In this document: positions 2,954-26,869 of the stretch, one piece after another
Layout of the letters: each line of letters begins with the position of its first letter
Numbering within the stretch: the stretch's first letter is position 1
DNA from: a virus
IMG/VR virus record: IMGVR_UViG_3300044835_000047
Span: 1 to 26,870 of that record
Length of the DNA: 26,870 nucleotides
Direction: 5' to 3' (one strand)
Notes under the pieces: model-generated
Seen by the model: only the letters and a program-made list of their open reading frames with translations
Database searches by the model: none
Told to the model about the DNA's origin: nothing
Translations under genes and position numbers: made by a program

Positions 2954-3397
2954 TTAAATCGTTGCCGTTAGTTCCCATCGCAGTTTTGGCTGCGTCGGAT
3001 GTTTGTCCACTCGCGGGCGAGAAGGAACATCCCAACTGCCACCCCCACGTTTGCCTATTAGTCGCCATCCAGAGGCTCTTAAACTCGCACCTCCTTCATC
3101 CGGAAGGGTGTACGTCCCTATTCGGTTGTAGCCAAGGGCGAACGCCGCCCGAGCAGCTGCGCCGTAGAGGAACGAACAGGCGTTGCGAGTACCATCTGTG
3201 CAAAGACGGGTGACCTCCAGCGTTCTTCCGTCTTGTAGCATCCGGGAAACCGGCCTGCCGATTATCGCCACGCCGACCAGTTCCCCCAGCCTTTCAGCTC
3301 CCAAACTAAACTTGTGGCCGCGCACAGGCGGGTGATGCCGATGCAGCCGCTGCACAAACTCATTCGCCTCCTGTAGAGTGATAGGCACAACTTCCAT
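2954..3397 (-). CDS. XF1762-like family protein
   Basis: The protein matches a small phage/prophage family named from Xylella XF1762. Landmarks are ITLQEANEFVQRLHRHHPPV, GHKFSLGAE, LVGVAIIGRPVSRML, TLEVTRLCTDGTRNACSFL, and GGASLRASGW near the end. The EVTRL and GASLR segments resemble parts of a GNAT acetyltransferase fold, but substrate and activity are unknown. I chose ATG at 3397 (MEVVPITL), which has AGG eight bases upstream. A TTG 18 bases earlier is an alternative start, and an overlapping five-codon ATG..TAA mini-frame precedes both. Confidence 0.8.
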   Translation of the reverse strand: MEVVPITLQEANEFVQRLHRHHPPVRGHKFSLGAERLGELVGVAIIGRPVSRMLQDGRTLEVTRLCTDGTRNACSFLYGAAARAAFALGYNRIGTYTLPDEGGASLRASGWRLIGKRGGGSWDVPSRPRVDKHPTQPKLRWELTATI

Positions 3398-3429
3398 TCT
3401 ATTAACCTTGACCAACCATACCGTTATCC

Positions 3430-3712: not shown

Positions 3713-3961
3713 CTATTCTTTCACCATTGTCGGTTTCCGCATTGGCGTTATAGACAGCTTCACCTTTCCGCCAGCCAGATTACCAATCTCACACCCCAAA
3801 GCGGCTGCTATTGCTAACGCCTTTTCGAGCGATACACTTCGTTTACCACTCTCAATCTCGCACAGATGGGAGCTGCTGCTATCGATCATAGTAGCCAACT
3901 CATTCTGAGTCAGATTGCGCAATTTGCGATATGCTTTTAGATTGCTGCCGAAATGTTTCAT
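3713..3961 (-). CDS. XRE-family HTH transcriptional regulator
   Basis: This 82-aa protein is essentially one Cro/C1-type helix-turn-helix: MKHFGSNLKAYRKLRNLTQNELA, then SSSSHLCEIESGKRSVSLEKALAIAAALG, with recognition residues around 27-38. The C-terminal part (AGGKVKLSITPMRK) is too short for a cleavage or dimerisation domain like that of lambda CI, so it resembles Cro, small immunity repressors or restriction-modification controller proteins. It is the first gene of the leftward early operon and has its own consensus-like promoter containing an inverted repeat, so autoregulation is likely. Whether it represses or activates the operon cannot be told from sequence. Confidence 0.88.
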   Translation of the reverse strand: MKHFGSNLKAYRKLRNLTQNELATMIDSSSSHLCEIESGKRSVSLEKALAIAAALGCEIGNLAGGKVKLSITPMRKPTMVKE

Positions 3962-4019: not shown

Positions 4020-4049
4020 CAGATTGTTTTGCATGTATGGAAACAATAA

Positions 4050-5156: not shown

Positions 5157-5410
<254 letters not shown>

Positions 5411-5936: not shown

Positions 5937-5975
5937 GCTATGGCTCCTGCTATGGGAAGGTAACTGTCCCTTAGC

Positions 5976-6004
5976 ATTGTAAGGTCTGGACCATGAATGC
6001 GCAA
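5976..6004 (-). promoter_or_regulatory. Possible promoter of the 165-aa gene
   Basis: On the minus strand TTGCGC (5999-6004) and TACAAT (5976-5981) are spaced by 17 bases, about 40 bases before the start codon. The -10 matches at 5 of 6 positions and the -35 is weak. The TTGC..TACAAT pattern resembles the candidate promoter before the 85-aa gene. Confidence 0.35.
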
Positions 6005-6065: not shown

Positions 6066-6845
6066 TTAGAATGGCCTTTTGGAGCGGAACTCATCCACAA
6101 ATTGCTCTTTGGCATACGCAAGAGTTCGATCCGCCCATTTTGTTATCTCATGCCAAGTTGATGGCAATGCGCATCTCCAGCAATTAGGATGGGCTGCGCC
6201 CTGGTTCCATCCACCCATGGCAAGATGCATTCCTTTCATAGAAAGCTCTTGAACTCCCGTCGGTTCGATTATTTCAACCAACCCGACTTCCTCGGCTGGC
6301 AATTCGATCAGATCACCCCCTTGTTCTAAGGGAGCGGCCTCCACCGATACACGATGATAGGATTCCACAAGAAGATCGGGGTCGATATGCCAATGGGGTT
6401 GCCCTGCACGCGAGCTTCGATAGTGGAGTGAATCCCATTCGGCCCTGAGAATGGCGTTCCTAGGCCTATATAAGGTTCCCCAATAGAATGTCCACGAAAG
6501 ACCTATCAGATTGAATTTTTCGTCGCCAATGGCGAGCCATTGCTCATACCAGCCAGCCCACAATGTCGGCTCTTCCGATGGCCTCTTCAGGAGGCGGAAT
6601 ACGAACACCCTTCCGCCGAGATCGCGTTCAATCCTGTCGAATGAAGCGCTCTCGGGATCTGGATCATCTTCGTCTGACTTGACAACATCAAGTTCAAATT
6701 TAATCTCGCTGCCTGAAACCGCCGTGCTCCAGCCTTTCGGGTAGTTCGGCGACCTCATCCGCAATGGCGTTTCCGCTGCCGCCCTGGCAACTGTGATGAT
6801 GTTCGCGTGCAGCGAATCTATATGGGACTTATTTACCCCGTGCAT
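6066..6845 (-). CDS. Unknown protein partnered with the N6 methyltransferase (QPHWH motif)
   Basis: This 259-aa protein starts 12 bases after the methyltransferase stop and is the second gene of that operon. Possible landmarks are an early DxEIKFELDV-like strand region (about 46-56), a central AEW followed by AGQPHWHID (147-155), MHLAMGGW (206-213) and a C-terminal helix (HEITKWADRTLAYAKEQFVDEF). The His-rich QPHWH and MHLAM segments look like conserved sites of a single globular domain. There are no membrane segments, and I cannot place it in a named nuclease or toxin family. Tight linkage suggests it works with the methyltransferase as restriction effector, specificity factor or toxin-like partner. 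That is inference only. Confidence 0.7.
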   Translation of the reverse strand: MHGVNKSHIDSLHANIITVARAAAETPLRMRSPNYPKGWSTAVSGSEIKFELDVVKSDEDDPDPESASFDRIERDLGGRVFVFRLLKRPSEEPTLWAGWYEQWLAIGDEKFNLIGLSWTFYWGTLYRPRNAILRAEWDSLHYRSSRAGQPHWHIDPDLLVESYHRVSVEAAPLEQGGDLIELPAEEVGLVEIIEPTGVQELSMKGMHLAMGGWNQGAAHPNCWRCALPSTWHEITKWADRTLAYAKEQFVDEFRSKRPF

Positions 6846-6857
6846 AGTCTTACTCGC

Positions 6858-9428
6858 TTAGATGTCGCGGGAGAGGATATCCTCCAGCGGCATCTGATAG
6901 GCTCGTGCGGCCAGGTGATTCAATTGCACCAAGTCGTAATTTTCGCCGGAATAAATCGCTCGCCCAATGCGCGAAAGCTTCTTGACCATATCTTTCGTGG
7001 ACGGTGACTCCGTGGAAAGATCAGGAATATGAACTTTGCTAACATAGCGAGAAGAGAGGTTGAGCTGACCACCTTGCATGACAGGACAGATGAAGGATAG
7101 AAATCGCCCAAACACTTCGCTGTTCAGCAGAGCCAGGTAAGCCCACGGCAGCGGGCTATTGTAGAAAGTGACAGGAGGGGCAACATCCTCATCGAATTCG
7201 CCAGGGTCTTCTATCTCGATTGACTCGGGAGGCTCCTTCAGCCAATGCCAAGCATAGCCTTGGGTGACGACGTATTGCCCCGAATCGTCATAAGCAAAGC
7301 TGCCCCTCTGCCCGAAATAGGCAGATACCAGCTTCGGCCCTGGTTCACGCTGCCATTCGCGTTCATGCGTAAGCCGCCACCATGTAGACTCATCAACGCG
7401 AGAGCGTGCCAATAGGGCTGATTTAAACGGTTGAAGGATTTCACGATAATAATTCGGTACGGCCGATTTGACCTGATCCTCGGCCGTCAATTTCAGCCCT
7501 GATGCATCATAGGGAAAGAAGACATAATTCTTTGGTGTGATACGACCATTCCGTATCGTCGATGATGCTGCTATGGGCCTGAAGAAGGTCTTTTCGTTCG
7601 GTTTGTATTTTGAATAGGTTTCAGCCGTGATGATGAAAGCTTCATTGAGTCCGGTAAGTGCACCTTGCTGTACGTTGAAAAGAATGCCTACGGTTGGCAT
7701 TCGCAGGCTGTCCAGCCATTCAACGGCCCTGCGATACCCCTCTGACCTTGGCGTCCAGCTAGGCTGCTGCATTATGAATTCTGGTGAGGAATCGTACACC
7801 TCAAAGCTCTTGTCCTGCCGGTCGATATATTCCCGGTCCTGCCGCAAAGCCCGCAACGCAGAGTCTTCCGCGCCATCGGTGGCGATTACAATGGCTACTT
7901 TTGCGGGGTCCGGAATACCTGCCGAGGGCTTTTTCATCACGATGAAGGCCGGCTCAACCTTCGTGCCCTTGAAATACCCGTAACCACGGAAACACCCGAG
8001 CAGCGAAAGCCTGGATTCGACTGCAAGATGCTTGCGCCAGCGATCTCCGGCAGAAGTTTCTAGCAGTGGGGCCGGGAGAACGGTGGAAACCACGCCTCCC
8101 TCCTTAATGCTCTGAAATGCCTTCCATGCAAAAGCCATCGCCTTGTCACTGCGCCCCTTGTCGAGGTGCCCCAGCACATTCTTGACTACCTCTAATTCAT
8201 CCTTATTCATCCGATCTACGTGGATGAATGGCGGGTTCATGAGCACTACATCTGGAGTGCCCCACTCGCAGGAAAGAGCATCCTCAGGGTCGATCCGGTA
8301 AGTGACTTTGACGCCGGAAGCTCTCGCATCCTGAGAGGCATGCTCAAGGCAGAATCGCGCCATCGTGCAAGAGATTTGGGACAGGTCGAAGCCGCGAATC
8401 CGGACGTCGCCGCGATAGCCACGATTTACCAACTCCAGGATGGCCTGAATCAGAAAAACCGCCGAGCCGCAGGCAGGGTCTAGGATGTCCAGCGAAGGGA
8501 ATGAGGAAAGATTTCCGAGTGCGTCCAAAGCCTGCTGGACGAGGGTACGGGCCAGCGCAACCGGCGTGAATCGCACATCCGAACGTGCTGGCGGGGACGC
8601 CTGAGCATCGGCCTCGTCAATGCCCGCGAAAAGTGACTGCTGGGCAGGCTGGCGTTCCAGAGCAAGATGTGCTTCCTGATAGAGCTGGCCCGAGGCATGC
8701 CGCATCAGCAGATTGGGTTCAAGAGCGTATCTGAACTGCGTTTCGACGTCGATAAAACGGGAAAGCAAAATCTCGGAAAGGATTGCCCGGCTGGTATTTG
8801 CAATTTCGAGCGCCCCGCTCGATCTGAGCAGATCGGGATACCCACCTGTGAGCTTTTCCAGCATTGAGATTATGTCGCCGATGTCGTTCCGCTTGGCGAC
8901 TTCCGCACGCTCAATCGCGCCGTCAGCTACCGCCTTTGCGGCAAGGAGTAGGGCATTGAATACTCGGAGGGATTCGTGGCCGTTGTCCGCTCCCCTGATG
9001 GCCGCTCTGATAGCCCTGAAAGCACGCAGGAGATGTAGGATAACATCTGTATGAGCTACAGGTTTGCTATTCTTGACGATGTTGAAGAGCTGCGATACGC
9101 CACGGGGCGACGTGGGGAGCTGGAACCTGCGAATCGTCTCCGGTGAATCCCAGCGGCGAAGGAGCACCACTTCCTTCTTCACGTCAGCGATGATGGTGTG
9201 ATTCAGGAAGGAAGACCACGACCATTCAAGGGGGCGATTACCTAGAAGTTCGGTAGGGTCATCGGTGACGAGGAAGGTGAAACTCGATCTCTGCCCGTCG
9301 AGCAGGACGTTTCCACTTTGGTGATAGACAGACGAGGCCTTTCCGAACAGCGGAACGGGCACAAGCCCGAGCACGCGCGCCCAGTCTGAAGCTTCACCGA
9401 CGTTCCAGCGATCAGCACCCGGCCCCAT
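6858..9428 (-). CDS. N6-adenine DNA methyltransferase, large (Eco57I/type IIG-like)
   Basis: This 856-aa protein should transfer methyl groups from SAM to adenine in DNA. It has motif X-like RFTPVALARTL (286-296), motif I DPACGSAVFL (317-326) and motif IV NPPF (398-401), followed by the usual Rossmann continuation (EGGVVSTVLPAPLLE). Residues 1-280 are a largely helical region without a PD-(D/E)xK motif that I can see, so it is not obviously a fused type IIG restriction enzyme. The C-terminal half (about 560-850) looks like a target-recognition domain with NSPLPWAYLALLNSEVFGRF, common in type IIG, BREX PglX and related enzymes. AAAGGCGG precedes the ATG. The promoter region holds a long palindrome, and the 259-aa partner follows 12 bases downstream. 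Confidence 0.9.
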   Translation of the reverse strand: MGPGADRWNVGEASDWARVLGLVPVPLFGKASSVYHQSGNVLLDGQRSSFTFLVTDDPTELLGNRPLEWSWSSFLNHTIIADVKKEVVLLRRWDSPETIRRFQLPTSPRGVSQLFNIVKNSKPVAHTDVILHLLRAFRAIRAAIRGADNGHESLRVFNALLLAAKAVADGAIERAEVAKRNDIGDIISMLEKLTGGYPDLLRSSGALEIANTSRAILSEILLSRFIDVETQFRYALEPNLLMRHASGQLYQEAHLALERQPAQQSLFAGIDEADAQASPPARSDVRFTPVALARTLVQQALDALGNLSSFPSLDILDPACGSAVFLIQAILELVNRGYRGDVRIRGFDLSQISCTMARFCLEHASQDARASGVKVTYRIDPEDALSCEWGTPDVVLMNPPFIHVDRMNKDELEVVKNVLGHLDKGRSDKAMAFAWKAFQSIKEGGVVSTVLPAPLLETSAGDRWRKHLAVESRLSLLGCFRGYGYFKGTKVEPAFIVMKKPSAGIPDPAKVAIVIATDGAEDSALRALRQDREYIDRQDKSFEVYDSSPEFIMQQPSWTPRSEGYRRAVEWLDSLRMPTVGILFNVQQGALTGLNEAFIITAETYSKYKPNEKTFFRPIAASSTIRNGRITPKNYVFFPYDASGLKLTAEDQVKSAVPNYYREILQPFKSALLARSRVDESTWWRLTHEREWQREPGPKLVSAYFGQRGSFAYDDSGQYVVTQGYAWHWLKEPPESIEIEDPGEFDEDVAPPVTFYNSPLPWAYLALLNSEVFGRFLSFICPVMQGGQLNLSSRYVSKVHIPDLSTESPSTKDMVKKLSRIGRAIYSGENYDLVQLNHLAARAYQMPLEDILSRDI

Positions 9429-9454
9429 GGAACTTCTGCCGCCTTTCGGAAGCG

Positions 9455-9490
9455 AGCTATAATGGCGTAACTCGTTACCCCATTATAGCT
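9455..9490. promoter_or_regulatory. 36-bp near-perfect palindrome with TATAAT on both strands
   Basis: The 17-base arms AGCTATAATGGCGTAAC (9455-9471) and its near-complement (9474-9490) flank a 2-base centre, with one mismatched pair. Each arm carries a perfect TATAAT -10 box: plus strand 9458-9463, minus strand 9482-9487. The minus-strand box would start transcription near the palindrome centre, about 45 bases before the methyltransferase ATG. The best -35 for it (TTCGCC at 9505-9510) is poor, which suggests activator dependence. The likely role is an operator controlling the methyltransferase operon. Confidence 0.7.
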
Positions 9491-9498
9491 TATTTTCG

Positions 9499-9535
9499 AG
9501 TGATGGCGAAGATCACTTTCCCCTTTGCCATCACT
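9499..9535. repeat. Inverted repeat AGTGATGGC in the methyltransferase promoter region
   Basis: AGTGATGGC (9499-9507) is the exact complement of GCCATCACT (9527-9535), with 19 bases between that include a further GATCACT. Read on the minus strand it is not followed by a T tract, so it is a poor terminator for the SLOG gene that ends at 9601. Its overlap with the expected -35 region of the methyltransferase promoter makes an activator or repressor site more likely. Confidence 0.5.
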
Positions 9536-9600
9536 GACTTGTAGCGAGAGCATACCAAGACGGAACGACCAGAAAAATACCCAAATCCCCTATTCTCCAT

Positions 9601-10056
9601 TTATTCCAGCCTCGCGTCTTCAGATCGGAGCCGCTTGGGTTCTGCCCTTTCCGAATCAATCAGATAGGTGGGAATTCCAGCCTCGATGGCTCGCCTGGCG
9701 CAGTCTTTCGTTCCCCTGCTGGCTGAAATTGCCCGGTGGAATGCGAGGCATAGCCGAGCGCCTGCCGCGACGATTTCGGCGTTCCTAACCGGCCCCGCGT
9801 TGGCGTTGTACGGTCGGTTCCGCTTGTCGTAGCGGATTTGAACGTGCGGCGCGTCCAGCTCGTCCCATCGTGCCGGATGCGCCTCCTGATCGATGCCGAT
9901 TTCCCCGCACGCTTCGGCGAAAGAACGGTCGATTCCGCTGGCTCCTCCATGCACGATGACGAAGCTCGGCCCGTGGCGTAGGATGAGCCTGTTCAAGACC
10001 TCCTCAGCCAGGTCGGGCGCGTACCAGTTCCGATCTCCGGTCACGATGACTCGCAT
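9601..10056 (-). CDS. DUF2493 / YspA-type SLOG-family protein
   Basis: This 151-aa protein has the Rossmann-like SLOG signature: MRVIVTGDRNWYAP at the start, then FVIVHGGASGIDRSFAEAC (about 32-50), PARW, GPVRNAEIVAAGARLCLAFH, and GTKDCARRAIEAGIPTYLI. The GxR-W and GGAxGID motifs form the nucleotide-binding face of this family. SLOG proteins are proposed nucleotide or ligand sensors and processors, often found in mobile elements and conflict loci; no reaction is established for DUF2493. The C-terminus (KRLRSEDARLE) ends just before the methyltransferase regulatory region. No Shine-Dalgarno is evident and a -10-like TAAAAT sits six bases before the ATG, so translation may be leaderless. Confidence 0.85.
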   Translation of the reverse strand: MRVIVTGDRNWYAPDLAEEVLNRLILRHGPSFVIVHGGASGIDRSFAEACGEIGIDQEAHPARWDELDAPHVQIRYDKRNRPYNANAGPVRNAEIVAAGARLCLAFHRAISASRGTKDCARRAIEAGIPTYLIDSERAEPKRLRSEDARLE

Positions 10057-11671: not shown

Positions 11672-12400
11672 CTAACGTGAGGTCAAAATCGTCGTAAAGC
11701 TGACCGATGAATATTCAGCGGTTACCGGCGCGGTGTACTTGAACGCCCCAAGCCAAGCATTCTCAGCGGCAGCACCAGCCCACAATTCGAGATACATCTT
11801 GCTCGCGTGAGCTGGCAATACCTTACCCGGCTTCGTCTGGAACAGAACTTTTCCGTCCGCGTACCATGTGATGCTGCCCGGCTGCCAGTTGAAGGCGTAG
11901 GTGTGGAAGTCGGCGGATGAATCGAAACCCAGATCAGCGATGTAGCTGCCTGAGCTGATGCCATTCACCCAATAGGTGAGCGACACATAGCGCGGGCTTC
12001 GGCCCAGGAATTCAAGGTCGATCTCGTCATGCGGGTTTGCGGTGTAGGTGAAAAATGCAGTGTTGAGTCCTGGGCCTGCGGCGGTTTTCAAATTGACTTG
12101 ATACATGCCGTAGGCCTGCTGGGTATAGGACTGCAACTCCCCGCAAGCGTATTTACCCTTTGGCAGTCCTACCTTGCTCCCGATGGTGAAATTAAGGTGC
12201 CCGATGCCATTAGGAAGGAACTGCGGAATAATCGCGCTGGTCTGCCACTGGCAAGCCATCCAGTCGCCATCAGACCAGCCGTTCGAGATATACCATTTCG
12301 ATGTGTCTATTGCGCCTGTCTTGGAGAAGAATGGAATCGTTTGGGCTTCAGCCTGGCTTGCGAATAAGGCTAGAGCTGCGATCAGGGCTTTGAGCTTCAT
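11672..12400 (-). CDS. Secreted GH16-family endo-beta-glucanase (ExoK/licheninase-like)
   Basis: The 242-aa product has a Sec signal peptide (MKLKALIAALALFASQAEA, cleavage likely after residue 19) and a GH16 beta-jelly-roll. The catalytic cluster is DEIDLEF, giving nucleophile Glu126, Asp128 and acid/base Glu130. WYISNGWSDGDWMACQW, CGELQSY, GLNTAFFTY and FHTYAFNWQPGSITWYADGK are typical of the family and close to licheninase and the rhizobial EPS glycanase ExoK. It should cleave beta-1,3/1,4-glucan-type linkages outside the cytoplasm. It follows the spanin genes directly and has AAAGGA before the ATG, so it is expressed with the lysis cassette. It probably loosens exopolysaccharide at lysis or helps virions spread. 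Confidence 0.92.
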   Translation of the reverse strand: MKLKALIAALALFASQAEAQTIPFFSKTGAIDTSKWYISNGWSDGDWMACQWQTSAIIPQFLPNGIGHLNFTIGSKVGLPKGKYACGELQSYTQQAYGMYQVNLKTAAGPGLNTAFFTYTANPHDEIDLEFLGRSPRYVSLTYWVNGISSGSYIADLGFDSSADFHTYAFNWQPGSITWYADGKVLFQTKPGKVLPAHASKMYLELWAGAAAENAWLGAFKYTAPVTAEYSSVSFTTILTSR

Positions 12401-25236: not shown

Positions 25237-26598
25237 TTAATCCTTTTGGTTGTTATGTAATAGGTTTCGCTTAACGACAAAGCTGGAAGTGGTTTCGGTG
25301 AGATCCTCCCATTGAATCGTATGGCCTGACAGGGCGGACTTCCACCATTCATGGGGGAATACACTCAAATGCAGACTATCCCCTATAATGGAGCCCATGC
25401 TGTCCGGCACGGTGCTAATTTGAAAGAAAACTGTTTCTGCGGCTTTCATTATATTCTCTATAACGTCGCCAACCTTGTCGGTTGGGATATGCTCCATGAC
25501 ATCGGTGCAATACCCAAAGGGGGCACTGAAACCTATTGGCTTGCTGAGGTCGGCCTGATGAAATGGCAGCAGCATTGCCTGGGGGTCACGGCTATTGGTA
25601 GCGAAATCAATTAACATGACAGCGTACCCCGCCTGATGCAGCTTTAGTGCACCCCGTCCAGTGCCGCACCCAAAATCAATAATCGTTCCATCCGGGTTGA
25701 CTACATCGAGAAAGGTATCTATGCAAAGTTCGCCCGGCGCTTCATTGCGGTATTCTGTGTGCTTCCACATCTCTTGATATTTTTCTTGCTCGGAAAGAGG
25801 ATTGGTCCATATGGCAGGCAGCAATCCATCTCCGTGTATATGAATTACGCTTCCGTCACGCGACAGCGCGCGTGCACGAGAGACGAACCCATAGGCCTGC
25901 GTTTTCATTGTGAGCGAGCAATGGTATGTCTTGCCCCTGTGAGTGGCTGTAGTATAGAAATCGCCGTCATTTAAGGGCTGGTGTTTGGCGTGTGAGCGCC
26001 CGCCTCGATTGGAAGAATCAAGGCCGTATATGTGAAGAATCCGATACCCCATAGCATGTACAAGGACAGGTACGGTGCCTCCTACTGAAGAATGTGCGCC
26101 GATCAGGCAATAATCAACCTGTCGCTTTGGGAAGTCCTGCTGCTCGTCCACGGGGTAATTGCCGTAGGTGGCGTGCCAAAGAATAGCATCGGGTACGGTA
26201 TCGAGCAGCGAAGGATCGACCTGTGACGCGAATAGATGGTTGCGAGCCTGCGAAATCAGCTCGATTGTGCGTGGCTGGGCGTCCATTATGACTTGATAGT
26301 CCGGTATGATTCCGTGGTCATTAAGGTAACCAGCGGCCCCATTCAGGGCGAAGATAATCCCACCTTTGCTCTGCATGGCGGCTATTTCAGCTACGCAATC
26401 TTCCAGACTCGGCCCTGATCCGCAAATGATCGCCTTGCCATCATGTGGCTCAGTCCGTGCAACCCATTCATTGGGTCGCCGCGAATTGGTGAGAACATTC
26501 GTCAATATGCTTCTTTCCGAAACGTTACATACCACGTCAAGCTCTACGCGAAGAGGCATCGTAGCGTGTATGTTCTGTAAAGTGACTTCTGATTGCAT
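25237..26598 (-). CDS. DUF115/MptE-like domain fused to a SAM-dependent methyltransferase
   Basis: The 453-aa product starts at an ATG with AGGAAA upstream (MQSEVTLQNIHATMPLRV). Residues about 50-260 form a DUF115 (MptE-like, Maf-related) domain: GKAIICGSGPSLEDCV, FALNGAAGYL, IPDYQVIMDAQPRT, IGAHSSVGGTVPVLVHAMGY, LHIYGLDSS. Residues about 300-450 form a class I methyltransferase with motif I IIDFGCGTGRGALKL and the later DVMEHIP. DUF115 proteins act in pterin diphosphokinase or flagellin-glycosylation (Maf) settings; the phage role is unknown. It sits between a capsid-associated gene and the head/tail connector genes, so glycan or nucleotide modification of virion or host targets is conceivable. 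Confidence 0.85.
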   Translation of the reverse strand: MQSEVTLQNIHATMPLRVELDVVCNVSERSILTNVLTNSRRPNEWVARTEPHDGKAIICGSGPSLEDCVAEIAAMQSKGGIIFALNGAAGYLNDHGIIPDYQVIMDAQPRTIELISQARNHLFASQVDPSLLDTVPDAILWHATYGNYPVDEQQDFPKRQVDYCLIGAHSSVGGTVPVLVHAMGYRILHIYGLDSSNRGGRSHAKHQPLNDGDFYTTATHRGKTYHCSLTMKTQAYGFVSRARALSRDGSVIHIHGDGLLPAIWTNPLSEQEKYQEMWKHTEYRNEAPGELCIDTFLDVVNPDGTIIDFGCGTGRGALKLHQAGYAVMLIDFATNSRDPQAMLLPFHQADLSKPIGFSAPFGYCTDVMEHIPTDKVGDVIENIMKAAETVFFQISTVPDSMGSIIGDSLHLSVFPHEWWKSALSGHTIQWEDLTETTSSFVVKRNLLHNNQKD

Positions 26599-26618
26599 AG
26601 TGTTTCCTACAATAAGGG

Positions 26619-26646
26619 ACAGCCCCCAAGTTTCCCAGGGGGCTGT
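26619..26646 (-). terminator. Hairpin terminator after the capsid-associated gene
   Basis: A perfect 9-bp stem ACAGCCCCC / GGGGGCTGT with a 10-base loop lies 8 bases past the upstream gene's stop. On the minus strand it is followed by CCCTTATTGTAGG, a weak T run. It could lower transcription from the very highly expressed capsid genes into the genes further along. Confidence 0.7.
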
Positions 26647-26653
26647 ATGGAGG

Positions 26654-26869
26654 TTAGGTAACGCGACCCTGCATGTGAGGCCGATCAATAATCAACGTCA
26701 CGGTTGTCGGGGTCGTCGCTTTGGCTACGGTTAAAGCACCCTGGATTTCTTTCCCAGAGCCGCTTGCCGCTACCTTTCCGGTCGTCAAAACGCCAATAGT
26801 GGCATTAGATGCCAGCGCAAGGCCGGATGTCTTGATTGCCTTGGCATTACCACCGATCTGATACCATCC
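26654..26869 (-). CDS. C-terminus of a capsid-associated protein (partial at window edge)
   Basis: The frame open to the window edge encodes 71 residues: GWYQIGGNAKAIKTSGLALA, then NATIGVLTTGKVAASGSGKE, then TTVTLIIDRPHMQGRVT. The beta-rich, Gly/Thr/Ala-rich composition and its place immediately before the head/connector genes and a hairpin terminator suggest a capsid decoration or minor head protein. The sequence is too short for a firm family call; its start lies outside the window. Confidence 0.55.
   Translation of the reverse strand, partial: GWYQIGGNAKAIKTSGLALASNATIGVLTTGKVAASGSGKEIQGALTVAKATTPTTVTLIIDRPHMQGRVT

Follow-up and report, generated by a model that had tools for sequence, protein, structure and literature searches.

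A 36-bp palindrome before a phage-borne adenine methyltransferase gene as a possible operator over a leftward promoter

In a temperate-phage fragment, a 36-bp palindrome lies directly before the start codon of a gene for an N6-adenine DNA methyltransferase (MTase), and the reading that we favour, giving it an even chance, is that it is a repressor operator over the single leftward promoter of a unit formed by the MTase and its partner gene. In this model, the symmetric operator would cover the -10 box and the start point of a sigma-70-type promoter from which the MTase-partner transcript would be made, and a dimeric or tetrameric DNA-binding protein bound to the palindrome would exclude RNA polymerase and thereby keep MTase expression low or timed. 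The adjacent dyad at the -35 element may be bound by this regulator or a different one, or may form a hairpin at the end of the SLOG transcript, and the mirror-image TATAAT would follow from operator symmetry without being a working promoter itself. The window, by which we mean the whole stretch of DNA analysed, is a virus record of 26,870 bases, possibly a fragment, and the relevant features are the following.

6066..6845, minus strand: partner gene, 259 aa, conserved downstream of the MTase, without a family match
6858..9428, minus strand: N6-adenine DNA methyltransferase, 856 aa, with an NPPF motif; start codon backed by the alignment of relatives
9455..9490, no strand assigned: 36-bp palindrome, proposed operator, AGCTATAATGGCGTAAC-TC-GTTACCCCATTATAGCT, with 17-nt arms, one mismatch and the 2-nt centre TC
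9458..9463, plus strand: mirror TATAAT, rightward -10, without a convincing -35
9482..9487, minus strand: TATAAT, likely -10 of the leftward MTase promoter, reading GCTATAAT; 10 of 12 consensus matches together with the -35
9499..9535, no strand assigned: second dyad, 13-nt arms, one mismatch, 11-nt spacer, score 10, overlapping the leftward -35
9504..9509, minus strand: TCGCCA, candidate leftward -35, 4 of 6 matches, 16-bp spacer
9601..10056, minus strand: SLOG (YAcAr) protein, 151 aa, encoded upstream of the MTase gene and co-directional with it

The palindrome was first described in an initial annotation of this DNA as having two 17-base arms with one mismatch at 9455-9490, and both coordinates and sequence proved exact, as did the observation that it contains neither GATC nor GANTC. 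Its sole arm mismatch is the pair 9466/9479, and when more mismatches were allowed the symmetry extended to 26-nt arms spanning 9446-9499 (81% complementary). The palindrome ends 27 nt from the MTase ATG and 111 nt from the SLOG stop, and both dyads lie inside the 172-bp gap that separates the SLOG stop (9601) from the MTase start (9428). Scored at +1 for a match and -2 for a mismatch with a gap of up to 8, the palindrome reached 14, the highest value in the window, and scores of at least 14 were obtained in 2 of 600 second-order Markov (Markov-2) windows. The only other palindrome in the window scoring at least 10 (gap up to 12) is the dyad at 9499-9535, the centre of which is 45 bp away in the same gap. 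While 0.5 palindromes with such scores are expected per window, two within 60 bp were found in 0 of 500 random windows, and we therefore conclude that the SLOG-MTase gap carries selected symmetry. The second dyad reads AGTGATGGC.AAG / CTT.GCCATCACT, with an additional ATCACT within it, and may be an operator or a 3'-UTR hairpin.

The initial annotation had also placed a perfect -10 box on each strand, and TATAAT is indeed present at 9458-9463 (+) and 9487-9482 (-). Its further proposal that both boxes belong to promoters was borne out in part: a plausible leftward MTase promoter lies under the operator-like dyad and is the sole promoter-like site in 9300-9700 (400 bp), a region in which shuffled sequences give 0.3 sites. 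Neither direction has an extended -10, because the triplet preceding the box is AGC in both. The predicted leftward start (~9475) coincides with the dyad centre, and since transcription beginning there would leave the hairpin in neither RNA, the symmetry would act on DNA. We count this coincidence and the significance of the single and paired dyads in favour of an operator. The site before the MTase (exact TATAAT, -35 matching only 4 of 6, 16-bp spacer) is a candidate promoter, and its activity is inferred, together with binding and repression by a putative regulator.

The gene that this promoter would serve encodes an 856-aa protein that matches the N6_Mtase and Eco57I models, carries NPPF at residues 398-401 and gives a profile match to M.BseCI; its start corresponds to the N-terminus in three relatives (L003, L118 and L119). 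For the 259-aa partner, no family match was found in Pfam, PHROGs, NCBIfam, PADLOC or PDB. With respect to a type II R-M system, the window holds an N6-adenine MTase and a conserved partner without a recognised nuclease family. The two-gene module (6066-9428, minus strand) is found in the window and in L003/L110, L004, L005, L118, L120 and L121, and in 7 of 7 copies the partner retains P-H-W, the H of MHL and several tryptophans. The pair is kept in Armatimonadota genomes (MTase identity ~40%) and on plasmids of Sinorhizobium mexicanum and Sphingomonas sp. (~30%), and no close MTase relatives were found in viral contigs. Structure predictions had a mean pLDDT of 42 for the partner and 41 for the MTase. 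We regard the MTase and its conserved partner of 230-275 aa as a candidate unnamed defence or R-M-like system.

The main rival to an operator is that the dyads act as RNA, with hairpins that end the SLOG transcript or insulate the MTase. They would stand in tandem in the 3' UTR of the upstream ArdC-85aa-SLOG transcript, or in the leader of an MTase mRNA made by read-through, and could insulate the MTase from upstream transcription, stabilise or cut the mRNA, or attenuate, a tentative possibility that we place well below even. Both dyads do fall, in the sense direction, after the SLOG stop and before the MTase start, and the leftward RNA (9429-9540) folds at -43.7 kcal/mol with a z of -5.3; such good folding as RNA is also a point against an operator. 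Moreover, strong palindromes in the phage DNA compared are often located at gene 3' ends, as are the TATAATGG..CCATTATA hairpins in L006 and L045. However, no U-run follows either hairpin leftward, where the tail of the transcript reads CGCTTCCG, and an intrinsic terminator, which would combine a G+C-rich hairpin with such a run, is therefore disfavoured in this direction. The position of the palindrome, 111 nt from the SLOG stop versus 27 nt from the MTase ATG, also speaks against hairpins at the end of the SLOG transcript, and a perfect TATAAT combined with a candidate -35 would not be expected of an RNA hairpin. The rightward RNA (9440-9545) folds at -44.7 kcal/mol with a z of -7.7, and most arm differences become G-U pairs in this antisense RNA, although with n = five this proves nothing; its tail reads TATTTTCG, and no rightward gene ends there.

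That the two boxes serve two working, mutually exclusive promoters arranged face to face, forming a switch in which the rightward RNA is antisense to SLOG, we consider very improbable. The geometry would suit such a switch: TATAAT is exact on both strands, and the predicted starts at ~9475 leftward and ~9470 rightward are ~4-5 bp apart at the dyad centre, so that the promoters would exclude each other and, with the -10 boxes facing, each polymerase would cross the other's promoter. Precedents exist in the convergent reverse promoters of EcoRI and the reverse promoters of Eco29kI (PMC3874152). Against this, the rightward -35 options match 1 to 3 of 6 positions at spacers of 15 to 19, the palindrome is not conserved, and any operator covering the leftward -10 implies the same -10 symmetry. 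The two TATAAT boxes are one observation and not two, because a symmetric element over one necessarily carries the other. The rightward promoter for SLOG antisense RNA put forward in the initial annotation is not supported, its -35 reaching at most 3 of 6 and its -10 being a by-product of symmetry; with a leftward -35 of 4 of 6 versus 3 of 6 for the best rightward one and a mirror TATAAT that is automatic, little beyond symmetry favours the proposed switch. More doubtful still is the extended version, in which one repressor or methylation event would select between MTase mRNA and SLOG antisense RNA as a compact bistable switch for a phage-borne module.

The idea that the same palindrome would stand upstream of homologous MTases was not confirmed: no comparable palindrome precedes the MTase in any of the five relatives with an MTase start far enough inside the sequence compared, and in two relatives with a MerR-like gene none precedes that gene either. 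This absence is weak evidence, because protein identity is 30-40% and operators change faster; as judged from these sequences, the dyad gains no support from comparison. Exact and relaxed palindrome searches of the viral collection returned 0, 0, 73 and 1 stretches. The exact palindrome is absent from this collection, and none of the 73 stretches, which represent the relaxed pattern TATAATGG-N10-14-CCATTATA, has both full arms plus the core. The 106-bp region matched no phage record, and its only plasmid matches were two weak ones (80-90% over ~40 bp). Few of the relaxed-pattern matches are true palindromes: those in L006, L034 and L045 overlap gene stop codons, that in L055 lies between two short ORFs, that in L016 just before a start and that in L074 between two diverging genes. 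In total, six palindromes with TATAAT arms were found in the compared phage contigs, which is not a frequency estimate because the loci had been chosen for the TATAATGG..CCATTATA pattern. Given these six, the statement that such symmetry is rare was too strong, and since several of them sit at gene 3' ends rather than at promoters, TATAAT in a stem does not prove a promoter.

Two loci with partial matches were rejected. In L006, TATAATGGNGTAA..TTACNCCATTATA is shared but forms a hairpin where a topoisomerase-like gene ends, within AT-rich DNA of a 289-kb contig; in L122, just one arm plus the core is present and the gene that follows is unrelated, which we took as chance. Similar TATAATGGAG..CTCCATTATA hairpins cover the stop codons of topoisomerase-like genes in AT-rich phage contigs at L006:2814-2845 and L045:9152-9183. 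The palindrome between diverging genes at L074:11254-11291, TATTTATAATGG..CCATTATAAATA, would give mirror-image TATAAATA T4-type late promoters.

A chance palindrome without function would account for the lack of conservation, and strong palindromes are commoner in real phage DNA than in random sequence: roughly a dozen unselected palindromes as strong were present in the ~1 Mb of phage contigs compared, and therefore ~0.3 would be expected in a stretch of window length. We nevertheless consider chance very improbable, given that only 2 of 600 random windows reach the score, that a second dyad occupies the same short gap (0 of 500) and that the palindrome stands directly before a start codon. 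A lone palindrome is ordinary, whereas the pair directly before the start codon marks the gap as functional.

Finally, a DNA-structural or recombination site (a remnant of a mobile-element inverted repeat, an integrase core site or a telomere-type palindrome) is hardly likely, although the size and symmetry of the palindrome resemble those of tyrosine-recombinase sites and the MTase module, with integrase and antirestriction genes next to it, has the look of cargo. The palindrome is single-copy without a partner repeat, and the integrase is accompanied by inverted repeats of its own at 5191-5322, in a tRNA-like neighbourhood. The telomere idea was set aside, as no protelomerase family match was found among the proteins scanned; the TATAATGG..CCATTATA orientation, which we take to be opposite to that of the N15 site, is a lead only. 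The inverted repeats beside the integrase are perfect over 17 bp (TTTGCCGTAAGTCGTTG / CAACGACTTACGGCAAA) and 98 bp apart, and between them lies a degenerate tRNA-like sequence (5219-5280; Rfam 25 bits, below the cut-off); this region is a possible attachment region.

Returning to the operator, we found no regulator tied to the palindrome among the candidates in the window. With up to 3 mismatches allowed, no further copy of the half-site is present in the window, and hence the putative regulator lacks a second target there. A single XRE gene was found (3713-3961), on the far side of the integrase and 2.9 kb downstream of the MTase stop codon. Its product weakly resembles C.BclI (E 5e-4) and C.AhdI (E 8e-4), its own upstream dyad is different (ATTGTTT..AAACAAT, 4023-4047), and the small XRE controller gene that C-protein R-M systems carry within the R-M operon was not found in the window. 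Scans with Pfam, NCBIfam and PADLOC detected no HTH domain in the MTase, the structure model of which is too poor to judge. On the Sinorhizobium and Sphingomonas plasmids, by contrast, a MerR-like HTH ORF of 148-151 aa directly precedes the MTase (L004:4531-4986 and L005:3946-4392); the two ORFs are 42% identical to each other and one matches MerR_1 (E 0.003, below the curated cut-off), suggesting that dedicated control of the module plausibly occurs. In the window, no MerR-like gene precedes the MTase. In L120, a stretch resembling the N-terminus of a Phd-type antitoxin lies in frame before the MTase. A dyad of similar appearance at 5948-5976 (GCTATNNNNNNGTAAC) before the 165-aa gene was rejected as a second operator, its 11/17 ungapped identity being at chance level in a scan for which the pattern had been picked after the site had been seen. 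We thus count against an operator the -35 of 4 of 6, the lack of conservation, the single half-site copy and the different dyad of the XRE gene.

The genes of the temperate-phage fragment include those for an integrase, the XRE protein and an ArdC antirestriction protein, and its structural genes show a distant likeness to phages of Bradyrhizobium, Rhizobium and Sulfitobacter. A search with a structural protein found no sibling phages, and relatives of ArdC (35-48%) have no other gene of the palindrome region in common with the window. A 153-aa protein encoded at 2954-3415 (minus strand) matches the Mom family below the threshold (E 8e-5) and is a possible DNA-modification gene alongside ArdC. 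Near the left end, the opposite strand (647-886, plus) encodes the C-terminal part of a tyrosine recombinase, perhaps the remnant of a neighbouring element. A glycosyl hydrolase family 16 gene (11672-12400, minus strand) lies near the phage lysis genes, and among the structural genes a 483-aa protein (25237-26688, minus strand) joins MptE-like and class-I methyltransferase-like domains.

If the palindrome is an operator, the phage fragment would have put an otherwise bacterial or plasmid-borne module under its own symmetric control element, which would stand in the place that the MerR-like gene occupies in two plasmid relatives. The conserved and unnamed module itself may matter more than the palindrome, and its wider value lies in its presence on plasmids of Alphaproteobacteria, in Armatimonadota genomes and here in a phage.

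Among known systems, the 3'-end hairpins of other phages (L006, L045 and L034) share the stem arms TATAATGG / CCATTATA with the palindrome, yet theirs overlap stop codons whereas it lies just before a start codon. In E. coli, Warman et al. found that a shared -10 gives bidirectional promoters with starts either side of or within the -10 (PMC12825309); symmetry likewise puts a -10 on both strands here, but as two separate boxes, 18 bp apart and facing each other. EcoRI has convergent reverse promoters opposing the methyltransferase promoter, with possible bistable behaviour, and reverse promoters are also known for Eco29kI (PMC3874152). In these systems, as in the window, promoter-like elements on opposite strands face each other at a methyltransferase gene, but theirs lie inside the endonuclease gene and were measured, whereas the candidate rightward element is without a convincing -35. 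For R-M systems, it is established that MTase genes are regulated through occupancy of an operator (PMC12707154). As under C-protein control and in the dual-function MTases EcoRII, SsoII and Ecl18kI (PMC12707154), a symmetric element lies over the MTase -10 and start, here predicted ones, and exclusion of RNA polymerase would be expected; unlike C-protein systems, the window has no adjacent C-protein gene and the element is a single 36-bp dyad, and unlike the EcoRII/SsoII-type enzymes the window MTase has no HTH domain detected by the family scans. Claiming membership in neither group, we suggest that the element resembles the operators of R-M MTase promoters or, if the rightward promoter were real, the convergent promoters of EcoRI.
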